Shown here piece by piece: positions 10,029 to 14,307 of a DNA stretch of 64,000 nt. A program made the position numbers and the translations under genes. The DNA is from an uncultured Oscillospiraceae bacterium. GTDB lineage: Bacteria > Bacillota > Clostridia > Oscillospirales > Oscillospiraceae. Numbering within the stretch: the first letter of the stretch is position 1; each line of letters starts with the position of its first letter. Location of the stretch: contig CANQMO010000006.1 in NCBI GenBank assembly GCA_947624985.1, positions 42,238 through 106,237 on the forward strand, given 5' to 3'. Below the pieces are notes generated by a model. It saw only the letters and a list, made by a program, of their open reading frames with translations. It ran no database searches and was not told the origin of the DNA.

Positions 10029-11516
10029 TCATTGCTCCTTTTCAGGTAAAAGATCGTTGCCGGCCGTCTCCGCCGGGACGCACAGGGGGAAGCGGACGGT
10101 GAACACGGTGCCGCCCCCGGCCCGGGGGCCTGCCTGGATGGCGCCGCCGTTGGCCACCACCGCGTCGTGGACGATGGCCAGCCCCAGACCGCTGCCGCCG
10201 GAGGCCCGGGACCGGGCCTTATCCACCCGGTAGAACCGGTCGAAAATATGTTCCATATCCCCCTCGGGGATACCGATACCCGTGTCCGCCACGGTGAGCA
10301 GGGCCTGACCGTCCGCCTGCCGGAGAGACAGGTACACGCTGCCGCCGGGCTGGTTGTACTTCACGGCGTTTTCCGCCAGGTTGAAGATGATCTGGTACAG
10401 GTCGTCCGCCGACGCCGCCGTGACGCACCCCTGGTCCAGGTCCGTCTCCAGCGTCACGTTCTGCTCCGCGGCCAGGGGCTCCAGCAGGTGCAGCGTCCGC
10501 TCCGCCACCGCCCTGATATCCACCGGCTCCGCCTGACGGGCCGTCACGCCGGAGTCCAGCTTGGTGAGGGTCATGAGCTTTTCCGTGATACGCTGGAGCC
10601 GGTCGGCCTCGCTGCCGATGTCCCGGGCGAATTCCCGCATGGTGGCCTCGTCCATGCCGTCGGACTGGGTGATACTGTCGGAGAGAAGCCGGATGGCGGC
10701 CAGGGGCGTGCGCAGCTCGTGGGAGGCGTCGGACACGAACCGGCGGCGGATCTCCTCGGTACTCTCCAGACGCCCGGTGAGGACGTTGAACTGCTCCGCC
10801 AGCTCCGCCAGCTCGTCCTTGCCCCTGACCGGCACCCGCTGGCTGTAATCCCCGTCCCGGACCACGTCCATGGCGGCGGACAGCCGCTTGATCCGTCGGG
10901 TCAGGGTGGAGGACGCCACGAAAATGAGCACCAGGCCCGCCCCGCCGAACAGCACCGACATGCTGCCCAGATTCTGTTGCAGGCCGGCGATGATGTCGCC
11001 CTGTTCGGTGTCGTATTCGTAAAGGCACACCGCGCCGGTGACGGCGCCGCCGTTCATCACCGGCACGGCGCAGCGGCTGGTGAAGGCGCCGGCGGTGTAG
11101 GAGTAGGCGCAGGAAAAGGGCGCGTATCCCTTCAGCGCGTCCTCCACGCCCCACAGGGCCCCGGCGTTCCCTGGGCTGCCGGCGTCGGCGCCGGTGTCAT
11201 AGAGGATACGCCGGTCCTGGTCGGTGATGACCAGGCGGGTCATGGGGGCCGTGTCCAGAAGCTCCATGACTTGCTCCACGCTCTCGGCGGTGAGCTGCTC
11301 CAGAGCGGACAGGGAACTGGAGATGACCGAGCCCTGGCTCTGCAAGGCGCCCTGCTTGGTGGCGAACACCATGTCCCGGCTGACGAATATGGGATAGATG
11401 TTCAAAAACAGCAGCAGCGCCGCCGTGAACAGAGAGAAGATCGACGCAATCTTGAACCGGACGGAGACGAACCGTCTGGTCCTTTTTTCCTCAGTCCTTA
11501 AAATAGTAACCCACAC
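10029..11516 (-). CDS. Sensor histidine kinase, HAMP type
   Basis: 495 residues. TM1 is near residues 22-42, an extracytoplasmic sensor region runs to about 185, TM2 is near 188-204, and a HAMP linker follows. The phosphoacceptor is His266 in SDASHELRTP. The ATPase domain has N, G1 and G2 boxes (NLAENAVKYNQ, DTGIGIP, GGSGLGLAI). It should autophosphorylate and pass phosphate to the regulator encoded immediately upstream. The start shown is a GTG that overlaps the regulator gene by 26 nt; no strong ribosome site marks it, so the true start is uncertain within the first 20 codons. Confidence 0.92.
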   Translation of the reverse strand: MWVTILRTEEKRTRRFVSVRFKIASIFSLFTAALLLFLNIYPIFVSRDMVFATKQGALQSQGSVISSSLSALEQLTAESVEQVMELLDTAPMTRLVITDQDRRILYDTGADAGSPGNAGALWGVEDALKGYAPFSCAYSYTAGAFTSRCAVPVMNGGAVTGAVCLYEYDTEQGDIIAGLQQNLGSMSVLFGGAGLVLIFVASSTLTRRIKRLSAAMDVVRDGDYSQRVPVRGKDELAELAEQFNVLTGRLESTEEIRRRFVSDASHELRTPLAAIRLLSDSITQSDGMDEATMREFARDIGSEADRLQRITEKLMTLTKLDSGVTARQAEPVDIRAVAERTLHLLEPLAAEQNVTLETDLDQGCVTAASADDLYQIIFNLAENAVKYNQPGGSVYLSLRQADGQALLTVADTGIGIPEGDMEHIFDRFYRVDKARSRASGGSGLGLAIVHDAVVANGGAIQAGPRAGGGTVFTVRFPLCVPAETAGNDLLPEKEQ

Positions 11517-12174
11517 CCCACTTGGTGATGATGCACGCCGGCCGGGCCGGGTCGCGCTCCAGCTTTTCCCGCAGACGGCGGATATGCACGTCCACCGTGC
11601 GGATGTCGCCCTGATAGTCGTAGCCCCAGACGAGATCCAGCAGGTTTTCCCGGGAATACACCTTGCCGGGGTTGCGCATGAGAAGCTCCGCCAGGTCGAA
11701 CTCCTTCACCGTCAGGTCCACGGGCCGGCCGTCCGTCTCGGCGGAGCGGCGCTCCCGGTCCAGCGTGATGTGGCCCCGGGTCAGCCTGCCGCTCTCGTCC
11801 GGGCCGCCGCTCTGCTGGCCCGCCCGGCGCAGCAGCGCCCGGACCCGGGCCTTGAGCTCCAGGATGTTGAAGGGCTTGGTGATATAGTCGTCGGCGCCGT
11901 ACTCGAAGCCGAGGAGCTTGTCGGTGTCCTCGCTCTTGGCGGTGAGCATGATGACGGGCACCGCGGAAAACTCCCGTATCTTCATGCAGGCGGAAAGGCC
12001 GTCCAGCTTCGGCATCATCAGGTCCAGCAGGATGAGGCTGTAGCCCCCGGTCCGGGCCATGTCCACCGCCGCCTGCCCGTCATAGCACACATCTACCTCG
12101 TAGCCCTCGTTTTCCAGATTAAATTTGATCCCCTTGACGAGCAGCTCCTCGTCGTCTACGACCAAAATCTTCAC
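11491..12174 (-). CDS. OmpR/PhoB-family response regulator
   Basis: 227 residues. The receiver domain has the acidic pair VVDDEE, phosphoacceptor Asp51 in LILLDLMMP, the Thr of MLTAK and the Lys of ITKPF. The C-terminal winged helix ends DVHIRRLREKLE and TKWGVGYYF. The partner kinase is the next gene. It overlaps comEA by 4 nt. Sequence style resembles PhoP/WalR regulators, but the regulon cannot be inferred. Confidence 0.93.
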   Translation of the reverse strand: MKILVVDDEELLVKGIKFNLENEGYEVDVCYDGQAAVDMARTGGYSLILLDLMMPKLDGLSACMKIREFSAVPVIMLTAKSEDTDKLLGFEYGADDYITKPFNILELKARVRALLRRAGQQSGGPDESGRLTRGHITLDRERRSAETDGRPVDLTVKEFDLAELLMRNPGKVYSRENLLDLVWGYDYQGDIRTVDVHIRRLREKLERDPARPACIITKWGVGYYFKD

Positions 12175-12533
12175 GGCGTTCTCTCCTCACTATAGCGCAC
12201 ATAGGGGGCGATGGCCCGGCACAGAGCGGGCCCCACGCCGGGCACCTGCTCCAGAGCCTCCGGTCCGTCGAAGGGACCGTGCTCCTCCCGCCAGTCCAGG
12301 ATACGCTGGGCCAGCACCGGACCTACGCCCGGCAGATCCTCCAATTCTTCGGCGGTGGCGGCGTTCACGTTCAGCGCCGCCTGCTGCTGCCGGACGGCGG
12401 GCTCCGCCGGGGCCAGGCGCACCGGCTGCATATCCCGCCGGTCCCGGGCATACCAGCCCAGCACCGCCGCCGCCACGGCTCCGGTCAGGACCCAGAGGGC
12501 CCACGCCGGGACGCCGTTACCCTTTCCGGACAT
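12171..12533 (-). CDS. comEA: ComEA-like helix-hairpin-helix DNA-binding protein
   Basis: 120 residues. One membrane segment (about 10-28) precedes a variable linker and two tandem HhH motifs (LEDLPGVGPVLAQRIL and LEQVPGVGPALCRAI) in the LNVNAATAEEL context typical of ComEA. ComEA binds incoming DNA outside the membrane during uptake. This one is short and sits first in a two-component operon rather than next to comEC, so a role in competence is not certain. Confidence 0.75.
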   Translation of the reverse strand: MSGKGNGVPAWALWVLTGAVAAAVLGWYARDRRDMQPVRLAPAEPAVRQQQAALNVNAATAEELEDLPGVGPVLAQRILDWREEHGPFDGPEALEQVPGVGPALCRAIAPYVRYSEERTP

Positions 12534-12559: not shown

Positions 12560-12588
12560 TTGCTTTTCCGATGGATTTTTCTTATAAT
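12560..12588 (+). promoter_or_regulatory. Promoter of the S11-like gene
   Basis: TTGCTT (12560-12565) and TATAAT (12583-12588) are separated by 17 bp, about 55 bp upstream of the start. Confidence 0.7.
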
Positions 12589-12642
12589 AGGTTGAAAAGC
12601 ATCTTCTAGGATATATCATACCATACTTTCCCGGAGAATGAC

Positions 12643-14307
12643 ATGAAAAAATTCAAGCTGTTGCCCCTTCTTCTGATCTTATCGCTGTTCGTGTCTGTGC
12701 TGTCCGTGCCCGCTCTGGCGCTGACCGGGCCGGAGATGGCGGGCATGAGCGCCGTGGCGACGGACGCGGCCACGGGACAGGTGTTGTTCGACAAGAGCAG
12801 CGATATGTCCGTGGAAGCGGGCGGAATGACGTTTCTCATGACGGCGCTGCTGGCGGGCGAGGCCGTTGACCGGCAGGACATTTTTATGGACGACGCCGTG
12901 GTGGTCACGGCGACGGGCGGCTATAACCTGGGGGAGGGCGCCGTGCTGGCCGATCCGGCTCTTGCCGAGGGCGAATCGCTGACGGTGGAGGACCTGCTGT
13001 ACCTCATGCTCTTTGGGGGCGCCCAGGACGCGGCCAATGTGCTGGCGGAATATGTGGGCGGGTCCATTGACGCGTTCGTGGCGTCCATGAACGCCCGGGC
13101 CGCGGAGCTCGGCTGCACCGGCACCAATTTCGTGAACACCAACGGCGTGTCGGCGAACGGCCATTTTACCACCGCGCAGGATATCGCCCGGATCGCCAAG
13201 GCGGTCTTTGAAAACGCCACGCTGCGGCCGGTCCTTCAGGCGCCGAACCACACCACCGCCGCCACGGAGGTGAACGCCCCCCGGACGGTCACCAACCCGA
13301 ACTCTCTGACGAGCGATGAATCCGGCCTGAAGTATGAGCACACCACCGCGGGCCTGCCCGTGCTGATGCCCATGGGCTGGGGCATAGTGGCCGCGGCAAC
13401 CTATAACGAGATAACCGTCATCGCCGTGACGCTGGGCTGCGTGGACGACGCTACCCGCTGCACCGATATGGGGACCCTGTTCCGGTGGGTGTATGAGAAC
13501 TACGGCTTCCAGACGCTCCTGAGCTCCACCGACATTTTGGACACCGTGCCCGTGTCGATGGGCGACCCGGAGGCCGTGGGCGTCCGGGCGGAGACCGGCA
13601 TACGCATCATGCGGGCCAATGACCAGCCCCTGGGGGAGATCACCCATAAGATCACCTACCAGCATGAGACGGACGGCACGACCCTCACGGCGCCCATCGA
13701 GGTGGGCGCTTACCTGGGCGACGTGACGGTGTACATGGACGGCGTGGAGTACGGCACGTCCCGGCTGGTGGCGGCGTCCTCTGTGGAGATATCCCGGTCT
13801 CAGTACCTGCACAGCCAGCTGGATGTGCTCATGCAGTCCGAGTCTGTGCGCCAGATCATCAAAATACTCATTATCGTGCTGGGCGTGTATCTGCTTCTGG
13901 TCTGCTTCTATCTGCTCCAGCGGGTCCGCCATCTGCACAGCCTGCGCAAGGCCAGAAAGGAGCGGGCCCGGGCCCGCAGCCAGCAGGAGATCGAATGGCT
14001 GGATCTTGGGCAGGAGACGCCGGAGAGCGCTGAGCCGTCTGGTTATATCCGGCAGGAAGCCGGGGACCGGCCCGGCCCGGAGGGGGAGGACGGCGAGTAC
14101 CCCGACGGGGAAGGCGAGTACCCCGACGAGAGCGGCGAGTACGCCGACGAAGACGGTGAGTACGCCGAAGAAGACGGCGAGTACGCCGAAGAAGACGGTG
14201 AGTACGCTGACGAGGACGGCGAGTACGCCGACGAAGACGGTGAGTACGCCGACGAGGACGGCGAGTATGCCGGCGAGGACGGCCGGGATGACGGCCTCCG
14301 CTATTGA
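12643..14307 (+). CDS. Catalytically dead D-Ala-D-Ala carboxypeptidase (S11) homologue with membrane anchor and acidic repeat tail
   Basis: 554 residues. The signal peptide covers residues 1-26. Residues 30-265 align along their length with DacA-type carboxypeptidases (TDAATGQVLFDK, TVEDLLYLML, FVNTNGVSANGHFTTAQDIA). All three catalytic motifs are changed. SxxK (expected SMTK) reads GMTF at 61-64, SxN reads GAQ at 126-128, and KTG reads KYE at 230-232. So it should not cut peptidoglycan or bind penicillin covalently. A second domain (about 290-395), a membrane helix (about 403-425), a basic stretch and a cytoplasmic acidic tail of nine heptads follow. It may bind peptidoglycan or lipid-linked precursors as a sensor or scaffold; that is inference. 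Confidence 0.85.
   Translation: MKKFKLLPLLLILSLFVSVLSVPALALTGPEMAGMSAVATDAATGQVLFDKSSDMSVEAGGMTFLMTALLAGEAVDRQDIFMDDAVVVTATGGYNLGEGAVLADPALAEGESLTVEDLLYLMLFGGAQDAANVLAEYVGGSIDAFVASMNARAAELGCTGTNFVNTNGVSANGHFTTAQDIARIAKAVFENATLRPVLQAPNHTTAATEVNAPRTVTNPNSLTSDESGLKYEHTTAGLPVLMPMGWGIVAAATYNEITVIAVTLGCVDDATRCTDMGTLFRWVYENYGFQTLLSSTDILDTVPVSMGDPEAVGVRAETGIRIMRANDQPLGEITHKITYQHETDGTTLTAPIEVGAYLGDVTVYMDGVEYGTSRLVAASSVEISRSQYLHSQLDVLMQSESVRQIIKILIIVLGVYLLLVCFYLLQRVRHLHSLRKARKERARARSQQEIEWLDLGQETPESAEPSGYIRQEAGDRPGPEGEDGEYPDGEGEYPDESGEYADEDGEYAEEDGEYAEEDGEYADEDGEYADEDGEYADEDGEYAGEDGRDDGLRY
14095..14283 (+). repeat. Nine tandem 21-bp units coding for the EY-x-x-E-x-G heptad tail
   Basis: The 3' end of the S11-like gene consists of nine in-frame 21-bp units, each coding for a variant of EYADEDG. 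The middle units are nearly identical at DNA level and the edges diverge (EYPDGEG, EYAGEDG). This pattern suggests growth by slippage or unequal recombination. Confidence 0.9.

Follow-up and report, generated by a model that had tools for sequence, protein, structure and literature searches.

The question raised by this locus is why a gut bacterium should keep a protein of the D,D-carboxypeptidase fold from which the catalytic residues have gone. The gene lies in the window, by which we mean the whole stretch of 64,000 nucleotides that was analysed. It and the parts of its product are the following.

12643..14307, plus strand: coding sequence for a predicted S11/PBP5-type pseudoenzyme of 554 amino acids, with an ATG start; orthologues in 35/35 genomes of its Oscillospiraceae genus
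12643..12720, plus strand: signal peptide, residues 1-26, with an ALA cleavage-like site (hydropathy)
12727..13437, plus strand: S11 (D,D-carboxypeptidase-fold) domain, residues 29-265 (Pfam Peptidase_S11, E=1.5e-35; AlphaFold2 and Foldseek)
12823..12834, plus strand: SxxK column, GMTF at residues 61-64, with Ser and Lys gone (alignment)
13018..13026, plus strand: SxN column, GAQ at residues 126-128 (alignment)
13354..13362, plus strand: KTG column, LPV at residues 238-240 (orthologue alignment)
13513..13788, plus strand: PBP5_C beta domain, residues 291-382 (Pfam, E=8e-5; 15/15 conserved columns kept)
13849..13914, plus strand: transmembrane helix, about residues 403-424 (hydropathy; a continuous helix in the AlphaFold2 model)
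13921..13983, plus strand: basic juxtamembrane segment RVRHLHSLRKARKERARARSQ, on the cytoplasmic side (genus-wide conservation)
14008..14304, plus strand: acidic cytoplasmic tail, residues 456-554, without the C-terminal DYFDSFF of intact relatives
14086..14283, plus strand: 21-bp tandem repeat, 9.4 copies, encoding GEYADED

The best matches of the protein, in sequence and in fold, are the class C type-5 low-molecular-weight penicillin-binding proteins (PBPs), such as PBP5 and PBP6 (DacA and DacC) of E. coli and PBP3 of S. pneumoniae. It has in common with them an S11 domain followed by PBP5_C (PF07943, 23.1 bits against a cut-off of 21.2), but differs in being without all three catalytic motifs. 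An AlphaFold2 model built with 44 aligned relatives had a mean pLDDT of 94.2 and a pTM of 0.79; its top Foldseek match was E. coli PBP6 (E=1.2e-31), and against V. cholerae 5tr7 the target TM-score was 0.92. The confidence of the model and these matches indicate that the fold is intact in spite of the lost residues, and the initial annotation, which had read a DacA-type fold from the letters, is borne out by the agreement of the Pfam domains S11 and PBP5_C, the pLDDT of 94 and the Foldseek matches to PBP5/6.

The manner of anchoring differs from that of PBP5, which is held by a C-terminal amphipathic helix. No such surface-lying helix ends the window protein; there is instead a hydrophobic transmembrane helix, the only one after the ectodomain by hydropathy, and behind it come a basic segment and then a long tail. 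After the helix stands RVRHLHSLRKARKERARAR, in keeping with the positive-inside rule, and the acidic tail follows (43 D/E against 4 K/R in residues 456-554), a large part of it encoded by the tandem repeat. The membrane helix and cytoplasmic acidic tail described earlier are both placed by hydropathy. At the other end, A24 and A26 of the signal peptide are conserved in inactive and intact forms alike. Among the inactive orthologues the number of GEYADED repeats and the length of the tail vary strongly.

To set the motif columns, 164 sequences were aligned, and an intact orthologue served as anchor. The earlier claim that three motifs are erased holds for all of them, and GMTF and GAQ were correctly read; the third, which had been given as KYE (residues 230-232, 13330-13338), lies eight residues upstream of the real column, where the window protein has LPV. 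The position of this column is clear from close orthologues, L002 reading VGLPG and L004 AGKTA where intact forms have GIKTG. The protein therefore has the fold and profile of an S11 enzyme but neither SxxK, SxN nor KTG, and it is best described, from its sequence, as an S11 homologue that would fall short of catalysis; activity is predicted to be absent.

It has to be considered how the motifs came to be lost. Within the genus all three are kept in ten of 35 species, while SxxK and SxN are both lost in the other 25, eight of which still have KTG. On a careful tree, from which the motif columns were left out, the 25 inactive species form a single clade (support 100/99) nested within the genus beside intact lineages, which themselves split in two, and the outgroups from other genera are intact. 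Because the inactive species make up one nested clade, the state of the genus is explained if SxxK and SxN were lost once, as a derived change, and the ancestor of the window protein had its catalytic residues intact. KTG changes state at least four times on the same tree, and its erosion came later than the loss of SxxK and SxN, and several times over. An assembly error or an oddity of one genome is ruled out by a loss common to 25 species. Replacement by an unrelated paralogue is ruled out as well, inactive and intact species having the same locus with comEA upstream and a single gene tree placing the genus as one clade.

A quick wider tree of 104 rows gave at least eight changes of state at SxxK, its branches being long and polarity set only for the window's genus. 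The columns lost in genera elsewhere in the family are largely the same ones, and these losses appear to be separate from that in the window's genus. The window protein is then an S11 pseudoenzyme specific to its lineage, and comparable losses are seen in other Oscillospiraceae genera. Homologues in other genera that are missing at least one motif are L093, L109, L135, L150, L108, L111, L113, L115, L121, L131, L134, L145 and L159; the tails of such homologues (L093, L109, L135 and others) are short and do not have the DYF motif described below.

The locus is conserved, and the surroundings of the gene include the following.

12560..12588, plus strand: promoter-like TTGCTT-N17-TATAAT, conserved in the genus (comparison of upstream regions)
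12612..12642, plus strand: conserved leader TATCATACCATACTTTCCCGGAGAATGAC with a ribosome-binding site (comparison of upstream regions)
12171..12533, minus strand: comEA-like helix-hairpin-helix protein, a divergent neighbour conserved across the family
11491..12174, minus strand: OmpR-type response regulator, synteny conserved
10029..11516, minus strand: HAMP/HisKA histidine kinase, synteny conserved

One orthologue was found in each of the 35 genomes of the genus, free of internal stops and full-length except for one that ends at a contig end. In the family sample 197 of 201 genomes gave a match at E<=1e-25, as did 129/129 genomes of good quality, the orthologue being taken as the best match per genome and backed by synteny and topology where the flanks were long enough. 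Both in the genus and in many others of the family, the S11 gene is divergent from the genes for the comEA-like protein, response regulator and histidine kinase. The promoter (TTGCTTTTC...TATAAT), with a perfect TATAAT at 12583-12588 spaced 17 nt from TTGCTT, and the leader (TATCATACCATACTTT...GGAGAATGACATG) are kept in inactive and intact species of the genus. An automatic consensus scan did not list the TTGCTT pair, because only 3/6 of its bases agree with TTGACA, and gave TTGAAA-N16-TATCAT at 12592-12619 instead.

The genus has two further S11 paralogues, and these read STTK or SVTK, SGN or SAN, and KTG in 30/30 genomes each. Since both are intact, the erosion is specific to the window gene and catalysis is covered elsewhere; genome-wide relaxation of S11 enzymes is ruled out. 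Such redundancy would also suit a gene in slow decay, drifting towards loss and retained by chance or under mild constraint. The S11 domain is less conserved in the inactive than in the intact forms, and although dN/dS between wider pairs of inactive orthologues never exceeds 0.55, it reaches 0.4-0.5 between more distant species, values which are rough because of saturation. Together these suggest that a partial relaxation of the inactive forms is likely, and the tail has also been expanded by repeats. Against decay are the retention of the gene without stops in 35/35 genomes, a dN/dS of 0.02-0.33 (Nei-Gojobori) over the ectodomain when inactive orthologues are compared in six close pairs, the conserved promoter, and the preservation of PBP5_C and the fold columns. 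We regard decay as unlikely. Close-pair dN/dS well below 1 and a conserved promoter speak for maintenance by selection, and the initial annotation's view of a selected non-catalytic role gains from these, from the clade of 25 species, from the pLDDT of 94 and from the intact paralogues.

The ectodomain has 85 columns conserved in 30 intact forms, and the inactive clade loses 23 of them; the losses affect 15 of the 30 columns within ten residues of a motif and 8 of the 55 elsewhere (hypergeometric p=6e-4), a test that counts the motif columns too and takes nearness to the active site along the sequence, not in space. A control of 61 more distant intact forms loses 5/85. In the PBP5_C region (residues 266-385) the inactive clade keeps 15/15 conserved columns. 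The positions of the catalytic Ser, Lys and Asn are filled by residues that vary by species, without a new consensus, the commonest residue reaching 24% at column 61 and 33% at each of columns 64 and 128. Most of the columns newly fixed in the clade, for example Y339 and R374, belong to PBP5_C or the membrane segment. As far as alignments can tell, constraint has gone from the catalytic cleft and remains on the fold core, PBP5_C, the membrane helix and the basic segment.

It is conceivable that the fold has acquired a new active site, as in esterases of the DltE/FmtA type. These too are PBP-like envelope proteins, and DltE, inactive on the peptidoglycan stem peptide, sets a precedent by acting on lipoteichoic acid as a D-Ala esterase (PMC10241514). 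DltE is still a serine enzyme, however, and needs Ser128 (PMC10241514), whereas the window motif keeps neither Ser nor Lys and the newly conserved columns of the clade provide no Ser, Lys, His or Cys site in the S11 domain. A repurposed enzyme is for these reasons very improbable.

The same columns bear on the suggestion that the protein is a transmembrane sensor, in which the degenerate pocket would bind muropeptides or another wall ligand and pass a signal inward by way of the helix and acidic tail, possibly to the histidine kinase encoded alongside. The outside-in topology with a cytoplasmic tail would suit a sensor, and the regulator-kinase pair is syntenic across the family. If the old pocket were used for sensing, however, it would be expected to stay consistent, and its columns differ across species, so that docking or scaffolding fits better than ligand sensing. 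Relatives whose active site is intact have the helix and cytoplasmic tail too, and this topology is ancestral; topology alone is then no pointer to sensing. Several species that carry the inactive form (L004, L015-L018) have neither kinase nor regulator at the locus. A beta-lactam sensor would in addition require an acylatable serine, and the window protein is predicted to be beyond acylation by a beta-lactam. Nor does the protein resemble the receptors BlaR1 and MecR1: it has no sensor serine or lysine in SxxK, and a Pfam search of it found no integral membrane metalloprotease domain of the BlaR1/MecR1 type. The initial annotation had proposed a peptidoglycan or beta-lactam sensor; a variable pocket, the missing serine, the ancestral topology and the 15/15 columns of PBP5_C argue against a pocket-based role of either kind, and we consider any form of sensor doubtful. 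It had also anticipated orthologues with the same substitutions and topology. The loss and the topology are indeed common to them, but the replacement residues differ. Obligatory coupling to the adjacent histidine kinase finds no support, since some species have no kinase and regulator next to the gene.

We suggest that the window protein descends from a membrane-anchored S11 D,D-carboxypeptidase, has become a pseudoenzyme and now serves the cell-wall machinery, with a probability of roughly 0.55, as a scaffold or adaptor in the membrane, without catalysis. The ectodomain of S11 and PBP5_C would dock outside the cell on cell-wall proteins or wall material, and the conserved helix and basic juxtamembrane segment would anchor the protein and link it to the cytoplasm. 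Because the fold is preserved and the catalytic residues are all erased, the job is now likely to be non-enzymatic; the step from an inactive and selected protein to a scaffold is one that we infer. A fold retained for stability alone, with the function in the tail, would leave a similar pattern. A narrower version of the scaffold is a regulatory decoy, whose ectodomain would compete or dimerise with the catalytic S11 paralogues and so tune their activity. Intact paralogues are present in the same cells, and elsewhere in the family intact and degenerate S11 domains are fused (L091, L105), but the decoy is a special case of the scaffold and the interaction is a proposed one, and little probability is given to it. 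In the two fused proteins (L091:352-3138 and L105:986-3805) the first S11 domain has STTK/SAN/KTG, while the second has DTVK or DTTK, with Ser changed to Asp, and SGD.

Other PBPs have a structural or localising role that is independent of catalysis. B. subtilis can divide with a PBP 2B that is catalytically inactive (PMC5656894), and PBP4 of E. coli reaches midcell even when it has no activity (PMC9166362), but both are active enzymes inactivated in the laboratory, and PBP 2B is of class B, whereas the window protein was inactivated by evolution. DipM, one of the LytM-domain pseudoenzymes, is reported likewise to have a cell-wall hydrolase fold, to be non-catalytic and to regulate other enzymes, its fold and family being different (PMC10336132). 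SCO4439 of Streptomyces coelicolor is unlike the window protein in being active, with three intact motifs and a reversed domain order, and its complementation requires DD-CPase and TM (PMC4751497). The nearest comparison is with the intact transmembrane-tailed S11 orthologues of Oscillospiraceae, which have the same locus, topology, promoter and PBP5_C, but in which STTK/SAN/KTG are intact and DYF[DE]xFF is often found at the C-terminus. No description of a natural S11-family pseudoenzyme was found in a full-text open-access search, which covered one library and leaves novelty unproven; a literature search on YxkC-DacA was without result.

An S11 protein with a transmembrane helix and tail is near-universal in Oscillospiraceae and may have shed its catalytic site repeatedly, with its second domain, membrane segment and promoter retained. 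It might therefore be proposed, with somewhat less than even confidence, that its main job was structural all along and that the carboxypeptidase was dispensable. Low-molecular-weight PBPs are usually viewed as redundant trimming enzymes with mild phenotypes. An active site erased from a protein that is kept in every species of a lineage would mean that its function is separable from catalysis, and if this were true the Oscillospiraceae would amount to an experiment, performed and replicated by nature, in separating the functions of a low-molecular-weight PBP. The presence of intact, half-eroded and fully eroded orthologues in one genus makes the separable function directly testable.

A C-terminal DYF[DE]xFF-like motif is found at 21/27 of the nearest loci in the family and in those intact members of the genus for which the end is sequenced, and six inactive members keep it; in the window protein and its closest kin it is absent, with GEYADED-type repeats in its place. 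From this it appears that the tail was remodelled after the active site was lost. It also counts against a scaffold that DYFDSFF, which would be the likeliest element to make contact in the cytoplasm, is missing from the window protein and its closest kin. In a DNA-pattern search of twelve genomes DYF[DE]xFF was matched in nine, once each, at the S11 gene; with at most one match per genome, the idea of a general cytoplasmic signal is not borne out. The conserved DYF[DE]xFF ends in L071-L085, L024, L025, L030 and others are candidate binders of a cytoplasmic partner.
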